This document shows positions 1 through 10,457 of a stretch of 32,868 bases of DNA, piece after piece (the stretch's first letter is position 1; each line of letters starts with the position of its first letter). The stretch spans positions 1 to 32,868 of the forward strand of contig CASFZN010000004.1 in NCBI GenBank assembly GCA_949299195.1, written 5' to 3'. This DNA is from an uncultured bacterium. GTDB lineage: Bacteria > Bacillota_I > Bacilli_A > RFN20 > CAG-826. The position numbers and the translations under genes are program-made. The notes under the pieces were generated by a model. The model saw only the letters and a list, made by a program, of their open reading frames with translations, searched no databases and was not told where the DNA came from.

Positions 1-342
1 ACCATTATGGCCATCTTTTCCATCTTCTCCATCGGCACCATCTTCGCCTTGGATATTCATTTTTAATTTCCATCCATCGGCTTCTTTTTGATAGACATCA
101 CCATTAGATGTATTTAGATACATATCTCCTTCTTTACCTAAATCGCTAGAAGGGGCACCTTCGCCACTATACCAGAAAGAGCCATCTTCACCTGGTTCCC
201 CTGGTTCACCAGGTTCACCTTGAATACCTTGTTCTCCTTGGTCTCCTTTATCACCTTTTTCTCCTTGTGCTCCAGTACAGCTTGCAAGACTCATAGCTCC
301 TAGAGCAAGAAGAGAAAGTACGGTTAATTTTGCTTTTCTCAT
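1..342 (-). CDS. Collagen-like lipoprotein, N-terminal part (runs off window)
   Basis: The visible 114 residues begin with a lipoprotein signal peptide whose lipobox is LASC (Cys22), so the product should be lipidated and anchored on the outer face of the membrane. Directly after it come about ten Gly-X-Y triplets rich in Glu/Pro (GEKGDKGDQGEQ, GEPGEPGEPGEDG), a short globular module (SFWYSGEGAPSSDLGKEGD, then a YQKEADGW segment) and a second Gly-X-Y run at the edge. The start ATG at 340-342 has an AAGGAGAC Shine-Dalgarno upstream. Residues 1-78 are almost identical to the start of the neighbouring gene at 628-3810, so the two are recent paralogues; the second Gly-X-Y run already differs. The C-terminal domain lies outside the window. 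Surface display is inferred from the family; ligand and function are unknown. Confidence 0.8.
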   Translation of the reverse strand, partial: MRKAKLTVLSLLALGAMSLASCTGAQGEKGDKGDQGEQGIQGEPGEPGEPGEDGSFWYSGEGAPSSDLGKEGDMYLNTSNGDVYQKEADGWKLKMNIQGEDGADGEDGKDGHNG

Positions 343-368
343 AATAAAGTCTCCTTTTAATTGGCACT

Positions 369-397
369 ATAATAACCCCCCCCCCTCGATTTTGCAA
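369..397 (-). promoter_or_regulatory. Promoter with G10 tract in the spacer (P1)
   Basis: On the minus strand the -35 box TTGCAA (392-397) and the -10 box TATTAT (369-374) are separated by exactly 17 bp, and the spacer consists of AATCGA, ten consecutive G (376-385) and one T. Slippage in the G tract would change the -35/-10 distance and so promoter strength, a known mode of bacterial phase variation. The promoter drives the lipoprotein gene starting at 342. The 345-627 gap holds this promoter, the conserved upstream block and the terminator of the next gene; I see no gene in it. Confidence 0.75.
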
Positions 398-426
398 CGC
401 CATTTTTATTATCTTCTATTGTCAAT

Positions 427-441
427 TTAAAATTTGTCACC
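427..441 (-). promoter_or_regulatory. Conserved upstream block of P1
   Basis: The 15-mer TTAAAATTTGTCACC (plus-strand reading) lies 29 bp beyond the -35 box of P1. The same 15-mer lies at the same distance from the -35 box of P2 (3900-3914), although the sequence between is only partly conserved. It could be a regulator site or an UP-like element, or simply a remnant of the duplication. Confidence 0.4.
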
Positions 442-567
442 TATTTTATTGAGATAATAAAATTTAAAAATTCAAGGTATAAAACTTATAAAAAATAGAT
501 GAGAGAATTTACCTAAATAATATTTTTGTGTTTTACTTTCAAATAAGTTCTTTATTAAAAAATAGAA

Positions 568-597
568 AAATACTTGCTGATATATCAGCAAGTATTT
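568..597 (-). terminator. Terminator of the 1060-residue lipoprotein gene
   Basis: There is a perfect 13-bp stem (AAATACTTGCTGA with TCAGCAAGTATTT) around a TATA loop. On the minus strand the stem runs into a T-rich tail. It lies 30 bp past the stop codon at 628. Confidence 0.8.
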
Positions 598-627
598 CCT
601 AATTTTAATAGAGACTTATTTTACTAA

Positions 628-3600
628 TTATTCTAAAACGTAAACACCAACTACGTTTTCACCTTCATAAATAGTTATGATACATTTTTCAGATTTAGTT
701 GGTTCATATGTAGATTTATTGTCATCTATATCATTTAAATATAATTCCCAACCAAGTTCTTCTAATTTAAGTTCTTCTTCTGTGAATTTTACGTACTTTT
801 CGTCAGTATTTCCAAAATCACTATAAACAAAGTACTTTTCAGGAACAGTTATCGAATTATTAGAAACAACAGCTTTATCTACGTAATGAGTTAACATTTG
901 TGTTCCAGATTTAACACCATTTTTATATCCTACTGAGTAATGAATGTAAGTTAAATCATACTTTAATTCTTTATTTTCTAATTCGCCGGTTAAGGTTAAA
1001 GTTCTATTATTTTCTTCTATGTTCTTAGCTTTTGATACAGAAAGATCTTCAGGTCTATAGGTAACAGCGCCATCTTCTAATGTATAGTTAGTATTTTCGC
1101 CTATACCAAATAATATGTCAGATTTAATTGTTCCATTTAATTTTCCAGTCAATTTATTGCCTGAAAAATTATAATCAGCATATGTAGTATTAAAATTTGC
1201 GCTATTACCAAATAAGAAGCCCGCATATCCGGCAGTTAAAGTTCCACCATATTCACAATCTTTAATTGTAACTTGTGCTTTATTATTAGGATTATCATCA
1301 TTATAAGTTCTAAAATAACCTCCAAATATTGCGCCATTATATGAAGCACTATTAAATTTATAATCGACTTTGTTAATTACTTTTTCGATGGTTGTAATGT
1401 GAGCGCAAGATTGTCCAATAACAACGCCAAAATTATTAGATTCACGGCGAAGTTTTTGATTAACTTCCCCGGTTAAAATTAAATTCTTCATAGTTAATTT
1501 GTAATTAACTCTTTTAACAGTTTTATCTCCATTTTCCCAACCGGAATAAGCGATAAGGCCAACGTTTGTTGTTTCTACATTTAAATTTTCAATAGCAACA
1601 TCTCCCCAAGTGTCACCGAATAAATAACCGCTTGTTAATACTTTATCTACTAATGTGACTGTGTGTTTTGGTTTGCCTTCAGTGTCAACTTCACCTGAAA
1701 TTTTTCCAGAAAAATGTTTAAAGAAATATTCTCCTTCAGCATCATTAAAATCGATATCACCAGTAATAAGGAAACTATATCCACCTAAACGAACATCTTC
1801 ATTTCCTAATAAAGTTTCAAATTGAGAGACATCAGAAATTTGTAATGGATCAGTTTCTGTTCCATCGCCGTCAGCAAACTTAACACCAAGAACTTTATCA
1901 TTTTCATTTACGGAAACATTACCGTTTTGATCTACAAGACCTTTTGAATATAATTGTCCATCAACAAAAACGTTATTTTTTTCTTCATAGCCAATAATAT
2001 TAATTTTTGTAGTTCCGTCGCCTTTTTTGATTATTTTTTCCTCATCAAATTGATTATAAGTAGAGCTATCGATATTTAAGGTAGCTGATTTACCTGAAGC
2101 ACAACCAACGAAAATTTCATAATAATCAGGTTCAGTTGAATTTTCTTCTAATGGTAAAACTTCATTTAAAGATTGAGTGCCTGCAGCATCGCTATTGGTA
2201 TATTTATAGGTAACGCCAGTTAAGGTTAATTCTGCTTTTAATCCATAATTATTGCTAATGGAACCATCATCACCGATAACAATTGCGGAATTAGCAACTT
2301 CATTTCCACTGCTATATACTAAATCATATCTATCTCCAGAATTCCCATTATATGAATTAGCCCATTCAATAGTTGAATTTTCAATTGTAGCTGTTCCGCC
2401 TCTAACAATTACAGCTTGTCTTAAACCTGTGATAACAGAGTTATTTTTAACTGTTACATTTGCATCTGGAATATTAACTAAGAGTCCAGTAGAGTCGTTA
2501 TCTTTTCCACTAAAACCGCCCTTTTCGGTAGTAATTAATTTTGAATGGTCAATAACAATATTAACTTCTTTATTATCTCCACCGGCATTAGTGCTTAAAC
2601 CATAAACTTTTGCGTTAATAATAGAATCCTTAATTAAAATGTTTCCTTTTCCTTGATGAACACCGACACCACTAGCATCAGTATTCAATACAACACCTTC
2701 AAGGGTTAAATTACCATCGGCATTTTCTGTTCCGGTCTCTTGAGTAAGACTTATAGCGCCCTTTGTTCCGTCCTTGCTATAACTATATTCAATAGTGCCG
2801 TTAGATAATGTAACGTCTTCATCGGTAATTTTTAAAGCGCTTACTTCCGCGGTAAGCTCACTATTATCAATTGTTAATGTTTTTCCATTTAAATCAATAT
2901 TTGTTCGTTCACCACTTTCAGAAGTAGTACTAATAATAGGAATTTTTCCTTCAGTAGTTATATCCTCAGCTAATTTAAAATAGGTCGCATTAGTGGCTTC
3001 AACAGCGTCGCTACTAATATTGGATAATTGATTACCATTAACTAGTAAAGCTGTTTCTTCGCTTAAACCATCGCCATCTTCAAATAATTGATCCCCTCGT
3101 GTTCCGCTATCGATGATATTACCCATTCCATCGGTTTGTCCTTGAGTATAGATGTAACCACCTTCAATATATGAAGTTGATCCAACAGCTGTGGAACTAC
3201 CGAATTCAGCTAAAACAACAAAGCCGTTTTCTTGCATTGCTAAAGTGTATGAAACAACACCATCAACAACTTCGCCTTTTGGTAAGCTAACTTCTTTGCC
3301 GTTATTCCAAATAGTTAATTTTTCAAGAACATAGCTTGAAGAATCTGGGTGAACTGTGAAGGTAACATCTTCGCCAACAACAGCACTGCCAACGTTAACT
3401 GTTACATAACCGTTTTCACTAGGTAAGATGGTGTTACTCCAAGCGGTCTTTCCGTTTGCACCATTGCTACCGTTTTTACCATCTTCTCCATCCTCTCCAT
3501 CTTCGCCATCATCGCCTTTAATATTAGCGATCTTGGTCCATCCGTCTGCACCTTTTTGATATACATCGCTAGTTGCAGTATCTAAATACATGTCTCCTTC

Positions 3601-3810
3601 TTTACCTAAATCGCTAGAAGGGACACCTTCGCCACTATACCAAAAAGAGCCATCTTCTCCTGGTTCCCCTGGCTCACCAGGTTCACCTTGAATTCCTTGT
3701 TCGCCTTGGTCTCCTTTATCACCTTTTTCTCCTTGTGCTCCAGTACAACTTGCAAGACTCATAGTTGTGAGGGCAAGAAGAGAAAGAACTGTTAATTTTA
3801 CCTTTCCCAT
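628..3810 (-). CDS. Collagen-like lipoprotein with large repetitive extracellular domain
   Basis: The product is a 1060-residue surface lipoprotein. The chosen start (ATG 3808-3810) gives a signal peptide with lipobox LASC (Cys22) and follows an AAGGAGAC Shine-Dalgarno at 3821-3828. An upstream in-frame ATG at 3876 would require translating through the promoter, so I reject it. After the Cys come Gly-X-Y triplets (about 23-53), a small SFWYSGEG / YQKGADGW module, a second Gly-X-Y run (GEDGEDGEDGKNGSNGANG) and then long stretches of short Asn/Thr-rich strands such as NIDLNGKTLTIDNS and TVKNNSVITG. The last part resembles a right-handed beta-helix of the adhesin or pectate-lyase-like kind (inference from pattern only). 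No sortase motif or catalytic site is visible. It is monocistronic, between a promoter with a G10 tract and its own terminator. Likely role: phase-variable adhesin or surface-coat protein. Confidence 0.85.
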   Translation of the reverse strand: MGKVKLTVLSLLALTTMSLASCTGAQGEKGDKGDQGEQGIQGEPGEPGEPGEDGSFWYSGEGVPSSDLGKEGDMYLDTATSDVYQKGADGWTKIANIKGDDGEDGEDGEDGKNGSNGANGKTAWSNTILPSENGYVTVNVGSAVVGEDVTFTVHPDSSSYVLEKLTIWNNGKEVSLPKGEVVDGVVSYTLAMQENGFVVLAEFGSSTAVGSTSYIEGGYIYTQGQTDGMGNIIDSGTRGDQLFEDGDGLSEETALLVNGNQLSNISSDAVEATNATYFKLAEDITTEGKIPIISTTSESGERTNIDLNGKTLTIDNSELTAEVSALKITDEDVTLSNGTIEYSYSKDGTKGAISLTQETGTENADGNLTLEGVVLNTDASGVGVHQGKGNILIKDSIINAKVYGLSTNAGGDNKEVNIVIDHSKLITTEKGGFSGKDNDSTGLLVNIPDANVTVKNNSVITGLRQAVIVRGGTATIENSTIEWANSYNGNSGDRYDLVYSSGNEVANSAIVIGDDGSISNNYGLKAELTLTGVTYKYTNSDAAGTQSLNEVLPLEENSTEPDYYEIFVGCASGKSATLNIDSSTYNQFDEEKIIKKGDGTTKINIIGYEEKNNVFVDGQLYSKGLVDQNGNVSVNENDKVLGVKFADGDGTETDPLQISDVSQFETLLGNEDVRLGGYSFLITGDIDFNDAEGEYFFKHFSGKISGEVDTEGKPKHTVTLVDKVLTSGYLFGDTWGDVAIENLNVETTNVGLIAYSGWENGDKTVKRVNYKLTMKNLILTGEVNQKLRRESNNFGVVIGQSCAHITTIEKVINKVDYKFNSASYNGAIFGGYFRTYNDDNPNNKAQVTIKDCEYGGTLTAGYAGFLFGNSANFNTTYADYNFSGNKLTGKLNGTIKSDILFGIGENTNYTLEDGAVTYRPEDLSVSKAKNIEENNRTLTLTGELENKELKYDLTYIHYSVGYKNGVKSGTQMLTHYVDKAVVSNNSITVPEKYFVYSDFGNTDEKYVKFTEEELKLEELGWELYLNDIDDNKSTYEPTKSEKCIITIYEGENVVGVYVLE

Positions 3811-3840
3811 ATTAAAAAAAGTCTCCTTTAATTTGTTCGT

Positions 3841-3870
3841 ATAATAACACCCCCCCCCCTGAGTTTGCAA
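3841..3870 (-). promoter_or_regulatory. Promoter with G10 tract in the spacer (P2)
   Basis: The -35 box TTGCAA (3865-3870) and -10 box TATTAT (3841-3846) are 18 bp apart, with spacer ACTCA, ten G (3850-3859) and TGT. It drives the lipoprotein gene 628-3810. From the -35 outward, 16 bases (TTGCAACGCCATTTTT) are identical to P1. The spacer is one base longer than in P1, so the two copies may currently have different strengths. Confidence 0.75.
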
Positions 3871-3899
3871 CGCCATTTTTTGAAGGTATTGCTCATTTC

Positions 3900-3914
3900 T
3901 TAAAATTTGTCACC
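3900..3914 (-). promoter_or_regulatory. Conserved upstream block of P2
   Basis: Same 15-mer as at 427-441, at the same 29-bp distance from the -35 box. The shared spacing suggests functional or very recent duplication. Confidence 0.4.
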
Positions 3915-4775: not shown

Positions 4776-7490
4776 TTAAAGAGCCGAATTTGTTTCCCAA
4801 GGAGTAAATGTTTTTGATGCTATATAAAGAATATATGATTTTTTAATTTTAAATGGATCTATATACCATCCTTGAACAATATTTTCTCCAGTCACATCTT
4901 CTCCTACATAATAAATTATTAATCTATCAGTTATGTAATCTCTTATGCAATAATTATTTTTCTCATCTGAAGTATCGAATCTTTGATTTAAGAATGTAAT
5001 TAATGTTTCACTATTAGAATTAACTTTATCGATACCTTCAATCGTTGAATTGAAGGTATCTCCTATATATGGGGTAGCTTCCCATAATAATTTATCATTT
5101 TCTGCCTCATGATTTATAAAACCATCTTCTTCAGTAAAAGCAGTATTTTCATCAAAAATTTTGATGAAATTCAAACGGTGTCTATAAGCGTAAACATCAA
5201 TGTTGCTTGAAGAACTAGATGAAGGATTATAAATTAACAAAATGTCAAATGTTGAATCTTGATAACTCGGATCAGAAAGCGTAAATCCATTCATTTTTAC
5301 ATCATCTGGATTATCATTAATTAAATCTTTTTCTATAAAGAAAGAACTTCCTTCATAGAAAATGTGGGAGTTATTTAAAGTATCGCTATAGTTTTCGTTA
5401 CTATCGTAAACAGGATTAATTACAACGCTTGAAGAAGTATATCCATTATCTAGCGTTAAATTAGGTGAAAGATTATATTCAAGATTTGCAACATAATCGC
5501 CACCACTTCTTATTTGGAAATAATAATTACTAAATTTATCAAAAGATAAATTTCTTAATAAATAAATATATGGGTTTGTTGAGGTTAATTCATTTTTACT
5601 ATCTATTTTATAACTATTCCCGTTATCATCACTATAACGAGGATAAACATCATGTCCATACATTGTAAAAGGAATTTCGTGTATTAAATTGTTGTTAATA
5701 TCATTCTCTAATCCCTCATTACTTTGATAATTACCACTTAAATTAGGAACAAGAGAAAAATCAGATACTTTTTCAAAAGCTAAACAACAACTCTTAATTT
5801 TATCTGTAATATTCTTTTGATCTAGTTTTAAAAAATAATCTGGATTACCCCCATCATAAATTAAAGAAGAAAAAATAGAATTCTGATTATTAACAACAAT
5901 TAAATTTTTATAATAAAGTTCTTCCCAACCCGGAATATAGTTTTTTGATGCATATTGAGCAATATTAAATCCATTATAATGACCATTTATATAACTAGAG
6001 TTTTCAATAGTATAAGCATCATGTTCGCTGTTAGCCACAAAAAGATAGACATTATAAAGACCTTCGCCATATGTATTTACAACTGCATCAAATACGTTCG
6101 GCCCAAACGCAACTTGCCAATCGCCATCCCGCTGATCGTTATCCGCAATAGGATTATTATGATCAGATTGGCAATTAAAAGATGAATATCTTCCACCAGA
6201 ATCATTATTTTCTAAATATACGTTAGGCATTGTTGCGTATGCAATATTATGGATATCGTTAAGATTGGAATCATTAGGCCACATGGTATTATTTGAATCT
6301 AAAATATCATCATCATACATAAAGTATCTTTCTGTTTTTACTAATTGATTACTCTTACTTGAATCAGTACCAGTAAACGCTGGTAAATAATGATTGGAAT
6401 CTTTATAAGTTAACTTTAATGCATCTCTTCTTCCATATTGATATTCACTTCCTAAATAATTTTTTCCATTAGAAAAGAAAGGAAAAAGCCTTATTACATT
6501 GTTTTCATCAGCATATACATCTAAATTTAAATTCATGTCGAAGTAAGAATTAATATCAGGATTTTGAAAACCCCATAAAATAAAATTCTCATCTTCTCCT
6601 ACATATGGATCGCTATACGTTCCATTATTATTCTTTGGAAAAATAACCCAGTTTGAAAAAGAAAGGTTAAACCAGTCTTCTCCTCCAATTAAACTACGTC
6701 CGGCATCCCCCATAGAACAAATTGGTGTTGAAGTTTTTTCTAAAAATGAATTTTTAAACTCTGTTTGAGTTACCTCAAGCTTCATTGGCAAATATCTACC
6801 TAGTTGATCCGAAGAGGTATCATATTCGTATGTGTTAGAAACGCTTTCACTATAAGAATGTAAGCGAGCCCAAGCTCCAAACCTATCGTATCTAAACTGA
6901 TTAATGCCGTTTACTCTAGATATAGTATTACCCGCCTGATAAGCGGCGTTTAAATGTTGAAAAGGAACATTTGGATTTCCAATTCCACCAGTATATAACT
7001 CATTCCCTTCTTCCTCAAAGACTTCATAAAATGCTTTATCATAATCATCATGCATATATACATTTTTGTAATTGTAATTAGCTTCTACGTAATCAACATA
7101 ATCTAAATATGTTTCAGAATCGCTAGTATCTGAGGTTTTGCTAGTAACTTCTATAACAGGATAATTGTTATTATACTTCCCATCAAAAGTAAAATATCCG
7201 AAATATTCTTCTGGGAGTTTGGTGACTGAAGTATTTGTTTTGTCTAAATATTGTCGGTATAAATCGGTATAAACAGCACTAGGAAATAAATAGATAGTAT
7301 AAATTTCTTCTTCGTCTTCATTTCTTCCAAAAGTATAATTTTCTTTTATATTATCAATAGTGCCTAAACCAACCTCTGCATCGTGTTCGACTTTGACGTC
7401 ATTAAAATACCAATAGGCGTATCCTCCGCCTATTGAACTACCTATTAGTAATAATGCCAATAAAGATATAATTGCTCTTTTTAATCTCAT
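4776..7490 (-). CDS. Large secreted protein with SipW-type signal anchor
   Basis: This 904-residue protein starts with a basic segment and a hydrophobic helix (about residues 5-28) followed by GGYAYWYFNDV. That is the aromatic hallmark shared with the other two secreted proteins of this locus and similar to TasA/CalY/SipW-dependent signal peptides (G-x-AYFTD). The rest is Asn/Asp/Ser/Tyr-rich with no domain I recognise, no further membrane helix and no sortase motif. It is the last gene of the SipW operon, 30 bp after the 7521 stop, and has an AAGGAATT Shine-Dalgarno. Its last codons (Ala, Leu, stop) coincide with the end of the ISL3 remnant (GGCTCTTTAA), so the original C-terminus has probably been replaced. 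Likely role: structural or adhesive extracellular component processed by the neighbouring signal peptidase (inference). Confidence 0.75.
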   Translation of the reverse strand: MRLKRAIISLLALLLIGSSIGGGYAYWYFNDVKVEHDAEVGLGTIDNIKENYTFGRNEDEEEIYTIYLFPSAVYTDLYRQYLDKTNTSVTKLPEEYFGYFTFDGKYNNNYPVIEVTSKTSDTSDSETYLDYVDYVEANYNYKNVYMHDDYDKAFYEVFEEEGNELYTGGIGNPNVPFQHLNAAYQAGNTISRVNGINQFRYDRFGAWARLHSYSESVSNTYEYDTSSDQLGRYLPMKLEVTQTEFKNSFLEKTSTPICSMGDAGRSLIGGEDWFNLSFSNWVIFPKNNNGTYSDPYVGEDENFILWGFQNPDINSYFDMNLNLDVYADENNVIRLFPFFSNGKNYLGSEYQYGRRDALKLTYKDSNHYLPAFTGTDSSKSNQLVKTERYFMYDDDILDSNNTMWPNDSNLNDIHNIAYATMPNVYLENNDSGGRYSSFNCQSDHNNPIADNDQRDGDWQVAFGPNVFDAVVNTYGEGLYNVYLFVANSEHDAYTIENSSYINGHYNGFNIAQYASKNYIPGWEELYYKNLIVVNNQNSIFSSLIYDGGNPDYFLKLDQKNITDKIKSCCLAFEKVSDFSLVPNLSGNYQSNEGLENDINNNLIHEIPFTMYGHDVYPRYSDDNGNSYKIDSKNELTSTNPYIYLLRNLSFDKFSNYYFQIRSGGDYVANLEYNLSPNLTLDNGYTSSSVVINPVYDSNENYSDTLNNSHIFYEGSSFFIEKDLINDNPDDVKMNGFTLSDPSYQDSTFDILLIYNPSSSSSSNIDVYAYRHRLNFIKIFDENTAFTEEDGFINHEAENDKLLWEATPYIGDTFNSTIEGIDKVNSNSETLITFLNQRFDTSDEKNNYCIRDYITDRLIIYYVGEDVTGENIVQGWYIDPFKIKKSYILYIASKTFTPWETNSAL

Positions 7491-7520: not shown

Positions 7521-8246
7521 TTAAATCTTATAATCTACCGAGAAGATTATCTCTATTTTCCAGCCATTAGTTAATCCGTTTTGAATAGAATTATATAAAC
7601 TTTCAAATGTCTCAATATTAGTTGGTTTAACATCTTGCGAGGTATACTCAAAGCAATCATTTAAATTCAAATTCATTGCGTATTGGGTAATATTAGAAGA
7701 AGGATATTCATAACAATTAGTAATGGTTGATGTTATGGTTTCTAAAAAGAATTCATCATTATAACCATCACTTACCTTTAAAAAGTGACTTAATTTAAAG
7801 GTCCCGTTGGTTGGATCATCGATTGAAATTCCATCTTGAATTCTTATCTCACATTTAAATTCTAATTCAGGATGTTCAATTTTATCTAATTCTGGATTTT
7901 CATGGAAATAAACGTGTAGAGTAGAATCGTTTATTAATTCTTGAGAATTATTTACCTTAGGATCGCTAAATTGATAAAACCTTAATCCGCTTTTTAAATC
8001 GGAAGGATCTTCTCCTTCTTCAAATACTAAAAATAAACGGTGGTCGTGATCACTAGATTCGTCTTGATGTCTTAAAAAATGACCACAAGAAGGTAAAACA
8101 TATGTAACATCAACTTCGACTCCATTTAAAGTTAAAGAAATATCTCCACTTTCATCAAAATACCATACACAAAAACCACTAGAGATGATGCTAGTGAGGG
8201 ATAATATTCCTAATAGAGATGTTAATATACGTACCTTTTTAAACAT
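7521..8246 (-). CDS. Secreted protein with SipW-type signal anchor
   Basis: This 241-residue protein has an N-terminal hydrophobic segment (about 6-24) followed by SGFCVWYFDESGDISL, matching the WYF-D/E pattern of its operon neighbours. The mature part is acidic and rich in beta-type sequence, with no recognised domain. The start lies two bases after the stop of the signal peptidase gene, with no clear Shine-Dalgarno, so translational coupling is likely. Family assignment rests only on the signal and gene context. It may be an accessory subunit (a TapA-like role) for a fibre formed by the 9680 protein, which is inference. Confidence 0.7.
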   Translation of the reverse strand: MFKKVRILTSLLGILSLTSIISSGFCVWYFDESGDISLTLNGVEVDVTYVLPSCGHFLRHQDESSDHDHRLFLVFEEGEDPSDLKSGLRFYQFSDPKVNNSQELINDSTLHVYFHENPELDKIEHPELEFKCEIRIQDGISIDDPTNGTFKLSHFLKVSDGYNDEFFLETITSTITNCYEYPSSNITQYAMNLNLNDCFEYTSQDVKPTNIETFESLYNSIQNGLTNGWKIEIIFSVDYKI

Positions 8247-8248
8247 AA

Positions 8249-9544
8249 TTAATTTTTAAATTCTTCTTTTTCTTTAATTTCTTCGTTTTCGATTATTTCT
8301 TCGATATTTTCTTCATTGTTAATTTCATTAATTTCATTAACTCTATTAACTTCTTCTTTATTTTCTTTATTTCTTTTTTTCTTATTAAAATAAAGATCTT
8401 TTTCTTCTTCGTTAAAGTCAAAAATAAGAGCGATTCTTTTGGTGTAACTATTATTAATTAAATATTCACTATATGAAAATGAGACTAAAAAGAAGAAGGC
8501 ACTAGCTAAAGAAATTAATCCAATTTCAGACTTTAAATAGATTAATGTTATTCCTAATCCATAATTATTAAATCCAGTATATCTAGCTTCAATGTCTCCA
8601 AAATAAAGATTAACTTCACTAACTAAAGAAGCAAAATTACTATCACCTCTAAAGGTATAGAGTAATTCACTCTTATTTCCATCTTTATCTAAATCATCCT
8701 TATCTTCTTTAATTTCAATTAATCTATGAATAATCAAATCATCATTACTATCTTTAAAAGCATAGATGTCATATAGTTTCATATCTTTTAATTCATCATC
8801 TACTTTTTCTAATTCTATTAAAGAATATTGTAAGATTTGATTATCTAGACCAAATTTGTCTAGATAATCATTATCTTTATATTTTCTTTCCATACTATCA
8901 GTATAAATCGTGATATAACTCTTATTATTAAAGTAGATGGTTTCATTATTTATTCTATAGGTGAAAGAAAATATAAAGATAAGTAAAAAGAAGATACCTA
9001 TAACTAAAAATATTGAATCAATTACATTATTTAAAATGGTATTAACTCTTTTTTCTTTAATGATACATTCTTTAATTTTTTTATAATTTTCTTTATTGTT
9101 AATGTTATTTTCTTCACCTATTAATTCTTCATTATCAATATTGAATAATGAAGAATTATAATTATTATCGTTATCACTATCTCTAACATCTAGTTCATTA
9201 ATATTAATAGTTTCAATATTAATTTTCTTACAAATGATTTCATTACTATTATTACTACTTAAACTAGTAATACTACTAGTTTCAATCGATTCATTACTAT
9301 TTACTTCATTTTCAATTAATTCATCAATATTTGAATCATTCTTATTACTTCTTCTTTTCTTTTTATACACACACTTTTTAAAGTATGATTCTTTGATTAT
9401 TTCGTCTTCATGACCATTCTTAATATTTTTACTCTTATATTTAGAGTATAAAAAGAAAAGAAGACTAAAAATTAGTGCTAAAAGGATGATAACACATATT
9501 GAAACACTAAAAGCTATAATTCCTAATCTCTCTTGGCCGCTCAT
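8249..9544 (-). CDS. SipW-like (ER-type) signal peptidase I
   Basis: This 431-residue membrane serine protease should remove the signal anchors of the neighbouring secreted proteins. Three hydrophobic segments are visible (about 8-33, 171-195, 340-362). The catalytic region has Ser217 in YTDSMERKYKDND (equivalent to GSMEP-x-GD), His273 in LIIHRLIEI and Asp301 in TFRGDSN. That is the Ser/His/Asp arrangement of SipW and ER/archaeal signal peptidases, not the Ser/Lys dyad of ordinary bacterial ones. Two features are unusual: an Asn/Glu/Ser-rich region of about 135 residues between the first two membrane segments, and an acidic Asn/Glu-rich C-terminal tail. Known SipW proteins are about 190 residues. 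No strong Shine-Dalgarno precedes the ATG. It sits between substrates, as in tapA-sipW-tasA. Confidence 0.85.
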   Translation of the reverse strand: MSGQERLGIIAFSVSICVIILLALIFSLLFFLYSKYKSKNIKNGHEDEIIKESYFKKCVYKKKRRSNKNDSNIDELIENEVNSNESIETSSITSLSSNNSNEIICKKINIETININELDVRDSDNDNNYNSSLFNIDNEELIGEENNINNKENYKKIKECIIKEKRVNTILNNVIDSIFLVIGIFFLLIFIFSFTYRINNETIYFNNKSYITIYTDSMERKYKDNDYLDKFGLDNQILQYSLIELEKVDDELKDMKLYDIYAFKDSNDDLIIHRLIEIKEDKDDLDKDGNKSELLYTFRGDSNFASLVSEVNLYFGDIEARYTGFNNYGLGITLIYLKSEIGLISLASAFFFLVSFSYSEYLINNSYTKRIALIFDFNEEEKDLYFNKKKRNKENKEEVNRVNEINEINNEENIEEIIENEEIKEKEEFKN

Positions 9545-9679: not shown

Positions 9680-10369
9680 TTAAAAAGTTCTATGAACAAC
9701 GTATAATTTAAGACTTTCAACTGCTTGAGCCATATCGTTAACTTCGCTTGCAGAATCAACCACACCATCTTTATATTCAAAGAAAGCATTTAAATCTGAT
9801 GGATCATTAGTTGAAACATCGATATTTCTAGTTGTTGTGTCACTAATTGTGTCTTCTTTATAACAAGCTACATAACTAGTGCTATCTAATCCTACTACAC
9901 TCAAGCTACTTGCAGCTGTTGTGATATTTGCTGACCACACGTCAGATGAAAGATCTAAATCATCGGTAATAACATTTAAATAATTTAACAAAGTTTTTGG
10001 TATATAAAAATATGAGCCGAAATTAACGCTATCACTTGGATCTCCTGTTTTAGTAATTGTTGCAGTTGCTCCTAAATCAGAAACCGTAGTTTTTCCATCG
10101 GCTGATAAAAATCTAATACCCTTGCCTCTATCGCTTGAAGGGTTAACTTGATCAAGTTCCAATTTAAATTCTTTAGTAGATGCAACAGCATTATCGATTA
10201 ATTCAACTGATGCATTCAATGTTTGAACTTCAGTTACATCGATTTTACCGGTAGCGTTAGCACTAGCTTGAACATCACTGAAATACCACGCACTGAAACC
10301 ACTTCCTGTAACTGTAATAGCGGTTAATAATCCTGCTGCTAAAGCGAAAATTTTTCTATTTAACATCAT
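9680..10369 (-). CDS. TasA/CalY-like secreted protein (SipW substrate)
   Basis: This 229-residue protein starts MMLNRKIFALAAGLL, continues through a hydrophobic helix and then GSGFSAWYFSDVQASANATG, closely resembling the signal peptide and mature start of TasA/CalY camelysin proteins (TYAYFTDKATATGNT type). The mature part is a Ser/Thr/Val/Asp-rich beta-type sequence with one long extracellular domain. An AGGGAGG Shine-Dalgarno at 10374-10380 precedes two adjacent ATGs; either (10369 or 10366) could be used. It is first in the locus, has its own promoter with a G11 tract and is followed by a hairpin, the expected layout for the most abundant component. In the known family such proteins polymerise into biofilm fibres; fibre formation here is inferred, not seen. 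Confidence 0.75.
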   Translation of the reverse strand: MMLNRKIFALAAGLLTAITVTGSGFSAWYFSDVQASANATGKIDVTEVQTLNASVELIDNAVASTKEFKLELDQVNPSSDRGKGIRFLSADGKTTVSDLGATATITKTGDPSDSVNFGSYFYIPKTLLNYLNVITDDLDLSSDVWSANITTAASSLSVVGLDSTSYVACYKEDTISDTTTRNIDVSTNDPSDLNAFFEYKDGVVDSASEVNDMAQAVESLKLYVVHRTF

Positions 10370-10427: not shown

Positions 10428-10457
10428 ATTATAACCCCCCCCCCCATTACTTTTCAA
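10428..10457 (-). promoter_or_regulatory. Promoter with G11 tract in the spacer (P3)
   Basis: The consensus -10 TATAAT (10428-10433) and -35 TTGAAA (10452-10457) are 18 bp apart. The spacer is AGTAAT, eleven G (10435-10445) and one T. Loss of one G would give the optimal 17 bp. It drives the TasA-like gene. Apart from the G tract it does not resemble P1 and P2, so the tract position has been conserved or has evolved independently. Confidence 0.75.

Follow-up and report, generated by a model that had tools for sequence, protein, structure and literature searches.

Poly-G runs in promoters are a signature of random on/off switches in pathogens such as the agents of meningococcal disease and syphilis, and switching by slippage is in the textbooks for a small number of mucosal pathogens. 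In the Vlp system of Mycoplasma hyorhinis, lipoprotein paralogues stand in tandem; their starts are similar, their tails differ, and their promoters are phase-variable. In Treponema, the tp0126 promoter carries a poly-G run between its -35 and -10 boxes and is transcribed optimally at 17-bp spacing, the poly-G spacer of Neisseria porA works likewise with a 17-bp optimum, and the tprL tract of Treponema pallidum has 7–11 G in vivo (PMC7864442). Here, two collagen-like lipoprotein genes and a SipW/TasA-like operon of an uncultured bacterium are, judging from the sequence, very probably (roughly 85%) phase-variable surface loci, which would vary through slipped-strand changes of their promoter spacers, and by recombination among paralogues as well. 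We favour this reading because of the position and rarity of the tracts, their order-wide conservation, the types of gene they precede, differences of one G between homologous promoters, and the mosaicism of the first lipoprotein gene.

The window (the whole stretch of DNA that was analysed, 32,868 nt) comprises all of contig C4, from a 1.17-Mb genome in 22 contigs, which is 95% complete and has 27% GC; the source bacterium presumably lives in the gut, as is generally the case for such bins. Since the window spans the complete contig, gene 1 is truncated by an assembly break. The lipoprotein genes and their upstream elements, with the boxes and tracts read directly from the sequence, are as follows:

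1–342, minus strand: gene 1, first 114 codons of a collagen-like lipoprotein (to the contig end); open reading frame, PF01391 above cutoff, lipobox LASC, mosaic
369–374, minus strand: -10 box TATTAT of gene 1
376–385, minus strand: G10 tract in the gene 1 spacer (C10 on the forward strand)
392–397, minus strand: -35 box TTGCAA of gene 1
427–441, minus strand: 15-mer GGTGACAAATTTTAA upstream of gene 1
628–3810, minus strand: gene 2, a 1060-aa collagen-like lipoprotein; open reading frame and family searches
3841–3846, minus strand: -10 box TATTAT of gene 2
3850–3859, minus strand: G10 tract in the gene 2 spacer (C10 on the forward strand)
3865–3870, minus strand: -35 box TTGCAA of gene 2
3900–3914, minus strand: 15-mer GGTGACAAATTTTAA upstream of gene 2

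The genes of the putative operon (the run from 10369 to 4776) and its promoter are:

4776–7490, minus strand: exported protein of 904 aa whose N-terminus is hydrophobic, final gene of the putative operon; open reading frame, no family
7521–8246, minus strand: 241-aa exported protein with a SipW-substrate-like N-terminus; open reading frame, no family
8249–9544, minus strand: SipW-like signal peptidase (NF046067, E 2.7e-6; TIGR02228, E 9e-4; both below the curated cutoff)
9680–10369, minus strand: 229-aa exported GSGFSAWYF protein (SipW-substrate/TasA-like), first gene of the operon; open reading frame and sequence
10428–10433, minus strand: -10 box TATAAT of the operon
10435–10445, minus strand: G11 tract in the operon spacer (C11 on the forward strand)
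10452–10457, minus strand: -35 box TTGAAA of the operon

Read along the coding strand, the three promoters are TTGCAA-AATCGA-G10-T-TATTAT for gene 1 (spacer 17 bp), TTGCAA-ACTCA-G10-TGT-TATTAT for gene 2 (18 bp) and TTGAAA-AGTAAT-G11-T-TATAAT for the operon (18 bp). Set against the porA and tp0126 type, these runs of 10, 10 and 11 G lie in spacers near the 17-bp optimum. Runs of at least nine G are rare in this genome, with 4 observed in 1.17 Mb against 0.03 expected from composition, and three of the four sit exactly between the -35 and -10 boxes of the window promoters. The fourth, a G10 at C18:395942-395951, is at the promoter of an operon paralogous to the SipW/TasA-like one, where it overlaps the candidate -35 box; that paralogue carries the same kinds of gene. 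The C-run lengths in the window reach 5, then nothing follows until 10, 10 and 11, and none of 100 dinucleotide shuffles of the window contained a 9-mer G run.

Profile searches of Pfam and NCBIfam gave no TasA/CalY family match for the exported operon proteins. A model of the TasA-like protein (22-row alignment, pLDDT 68) had no significant fold match in Foldseek (best E 0.16), its best VIA Z of 4.5, to integrin beta-sandwiches, was uninformative, and no TasA chain was among the structural matches listed. Upstream of two TasA-like genes elsewhere (L092, L094), the sense strand carries a C8 run within a possible promoter spacer (TTGCAA...C8), opposite to the usual strand of the G run.

The proposed switch would work as follows. 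A run of 9–12 G beside the -10 box would occupy part of the -35/-10 spacer, and slipped-strand mispairing during replication would add or remove one G, so that the spacer would shift around the 17–18 bp optimum and transcription would be switched or graded, independently for each gene. Recombination among the tandem paralogues may additionally reshuffle the proteins, and a candidate benefit is escape from antibodies, phages or competitors, or bet-hedging in adhesion. Slippage in living cells, the effect on transcription, surface exposure of the products and the benefit are what we infer.

The poly-G in the promoter spacer is a more specific variation device than paralogue recombination, and it is absent from the first-pass annotation, which had proposed that genes 1 and 2 are a recent duplication with identical 5' ends, set up for antigenic variation by recombination. 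Two paralogous collagen-like lipoprotein genes on the same strand are indeed real, with N-termini that align gap-free, matching promoters, and a Gly-X-Y repeat recognised by the Collagen family PF01391 at 37.3 and 28.7 bits (Pfam cutoff 27.2). The first 78 residues, claimed to be shared, are similar and align without gaps, but they are not identical (6 differences). At the DNA level, the 5' ends are 84.5% identical over 342 nt with a longest exact stretch of 44 nt, so that identity of the 5' ends does not hold, and given this divergence and the 22 synonymous codon differences (next to 19 non-synonymous ones in the same 342 nt), the pair is not a recent copy. The 15-mer, of which the genome holds only these two exact copies, begins 44 nt before the -35 box in both genes as had been stated for an identical distance, whereas relative to the ATG the distances differ (99 vs 104 nt).

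Further copies with a similar start and different tails, which the same note had led one to expect, were found by a search of the genome: there are three close copies and more distant relatives (C21:81345 and C10:984). The third close copy is truncated at the broken end of contig C21 and matches at 86% over residues 37–114; beside it on C21 lies a fourth relative (L015:4200-5507), which has an in-frame TAA and no upstream G run and is possibly a silent copy. Gene 1 is mosaic, resembling gene 2 in its 5' half and gene 3 in its 3' half: in the region common to the three genes, informative sites divide 29:2 (gene-2-like to gene-3-like) up to the breakpoint and 3:29 beyond it (P 5e-5 by permutation). 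The mosaic segment is within 150 nt of the contig end; an ordinary k-mer assembly chimera is nevertheless unlikely, because the exact match common to all three genes at the junction is just 17 nt. The idea of recombination-based variation keeps its extra copies and a significant mosaic, and loses the recent duplication and the identical 5' ends.

These data could also be taken to mean that recombination among tandem paralogues with a conserved 5' block is the main source of variation, and that the promoters are shared merely by duplication. The mosaic gene, the presence of at least three close copies and a fourth without a poly-G promoter and with an in-frame stop all speak for it; still, we consider it rather unlikely, as it leaves unexplained the G tracts found order-wide at unrelated genes (SipW/TasA-like, pilin and polysaccharide genes), and exact shared stretches are at most 44 nt.

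The occurrence of such promoters in relatives was surveyed with the pattern GGGGGGGGG-N0-3-TANNAT, the -35 box forming no part of the selection. In the family, the pattern is present in 35 of 209 genomes and 15 of 33 genera; in the order, it is present in 56 of 257 genomes, 25 of 51 genera and 5 of 7 families, and absent from the other 201 genomes. A control pattern in reversed order gave 2 sites, and a C-run version gave 6 sites in 155 genomes of the order. Across a sample of the whole class, the pattern is present in 62 of 394 genomes; these belong mainly to the order of the window and to a small number of other families, and several further families have almost none. Some genomes have at least 10 sites (e.g., G505, G342). 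A match to TTGACA at five or more of six positions is found at 49 of 86 sites (57%, against 3.8% in shuffled upstream sequence), with spacers at those 49 of 15–21 bp (mode 19), while at some pattern sites the -35 box is weak. Tract lengths keep to a narrow range, mostly 9–11. Among viral contigs, there were 3 matches to the promoter pattern and 8 to species-specific promoter words.

The genes downstream encode collagen-like lipoproteins, pilins, fibre-like proteins, LRR proteins, sugar transferases, polysaccharide synthesis and MBOAT proteins. An unselected listing of every run of at least nine G in the 26 genomes of the genus has many runs preceding TasA-like, pilin-like and collagen-like lipoprotein genes, and others lying in regulators, in an HsdS gene, and within lipoprotein genes, where they are in frame and closely follow the lipobox. 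As some runs are coding and many downstream genes are unclassified, the targets are not exclusively surface proteins.

An artefact of sequencing chemistry or of assembly ends was considered as the origin of the tracts, since a few runs do stand at contig ends (G26 in L055, G12 in L051). It is very improbable: each run in the window is flanked by well-formed promoter boxes, two of the three are well away from the contig ends, and the arrangement recurs with correct boxes in tens of independent genomes. Sequence artefact as a source was rejected by the shuffles together with the order-wide controls.

A scan of contigs for a second strain of the species gave other species alone (28–44% protein identity), and the following comparisons of tract length set side by side homologous promoters that belong to different genes or to different species. 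Matched promoters differ by one G in L187/L188 and L184/L183 (G10/G9 in both pairs), in L164/L167 (G10/G9, with proteins 93% identical) and in L154/L166 (G11/G10, different genera with nearly the same flanks), and L200/L201 carry G9, G9 and G10. In L195 (G541:C6), six tandem paralogues share the start MKNLKMFAI... and diverge in their tails; every one has a promoter to itself, and these promoters (TTGACA-N10-G8/9-TATAAT) are near-identical, five of them with G9 and one with G8. One orthologous promoter series runs through G10, G9, an interrupted G4TG8 and a decayed tract. Because short-read assemblies can miscount a homopolymer by one base, some of the one-G differences are perhaps errors, and a single-base assembly error is possible for any individual case.

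Variation of this kind bears on whether the poly-G is a fixed promoter element, that is, a stretch of constant length which tunes constitutive strength through DNA stiffness or as a protein-binding site. Such an element would fit the tract being nearly always on the same strand and adjoining the -10 box, and the narrow length range, mostly 9–11. We find it improbable, given that homologous promoters differ by one G, spacers range from 15 to 21 bp, and orthologues are decayed or interrupted. Long poly-G runs also count as some of the most unstable sequences known from bacteria.

Other poly-G sites were seen outside promoter spacers. A conserved leader in L168, L165, L161, L163, L057/L029 and L213 comprises, in this order, CTTGCCTCTCTC, G9-11-TAATATTA, a terminator-like hairpin and AGGAGG, and this class precedes unrelated genes in several genera. 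Its CUCUCUC can pair with the G run (G-C and G-U), with fold z of -2.9 to -4.1, and the leader is possibly a tract-length-dependent attenuator; in Rfam, no known element was found in this class apart from neighbouring tRNAs. An in-frame G9 is present in a type I restriction specificity gene (HsdS, PF01420; L050:1968-3143 and its L061 homologue), a candidate phase-variable methylation regulator, and in-frame G9-10 tracts shortly past the signal peptide of lipoprotein genes (L052, L053, L058) are candidate translational on/off switches. In a LacI-type regulator (L049:2769-3308), the frame closes soon after a G9 and the remainder lies in another frame, which is either an OFF state or an assembly error.

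Returning to phase variation through promoter spacers, we think it somewhat probable that these sites form a lineage-wide phasome of poly-G promoter switches in uncultivated Bacilli, with at least 10 independent switches per genome in some lineages (G505, G342, G481), controlling matrix fibres, pili, lipoproteins, LRR proteins and polysaccharides, to which the tracts that lie in frame within lipoprotein genes and genes for type I restriction specificity, the leader-hairpin class and paralogue recombination would be added. A search of the open-licence PMC literature found no paper that describes poly-G promoters in these Bacilli; the type of switch is already known, and its spread through uncultivated Bacilli appears to be undescribed in that literature. 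The same slippage device would then mark surface genes across small-genome Bacilli that are uncultivated and have been seen almost exclusively as metagenome bins. Existing metagenome reads offer a direct test of phase variation in these commensals, the signature singles out probable surface and matrix genes within the set of unknown proteins, and poly-G loci may help explain assembly breaks at such sites in these genomes.

Among the known systems, Vlp differs in having a poly-A tract upstream of the -10 box, where the window has poly-G and collagen-like stalks. The operon resembles tapA-sipW-tasA of Bacillus subtilis in combining a SipW-like signal peptidase and exported GxGFSAW-type proteins in one gene run, although it lacks a TasA family match or a significant fold match, and no poly-G promoter is known for the Bacillus system. 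The sortase pili of Bifidobacterium breve offer a gut commensal in which replication slippage turns a surface structure ON or OFF, but in an Actinobacterium and for pili (PMC9187656). Treponema pallidum tp0126/tpr shares the poly-G within the promoter (PMC7864442), yet controls outer-membrane proteins of a spirochaete, and switching was measured there, whereas here we infer it. Neisseria meningitidis porA has the same G run between promoter boxes in control of a surface protein (PMC7864442), but that is an outer-membrane porin of a Gram-negative pathogen, while here the device is found at many loci per lineage in uncultivated Bacilli.
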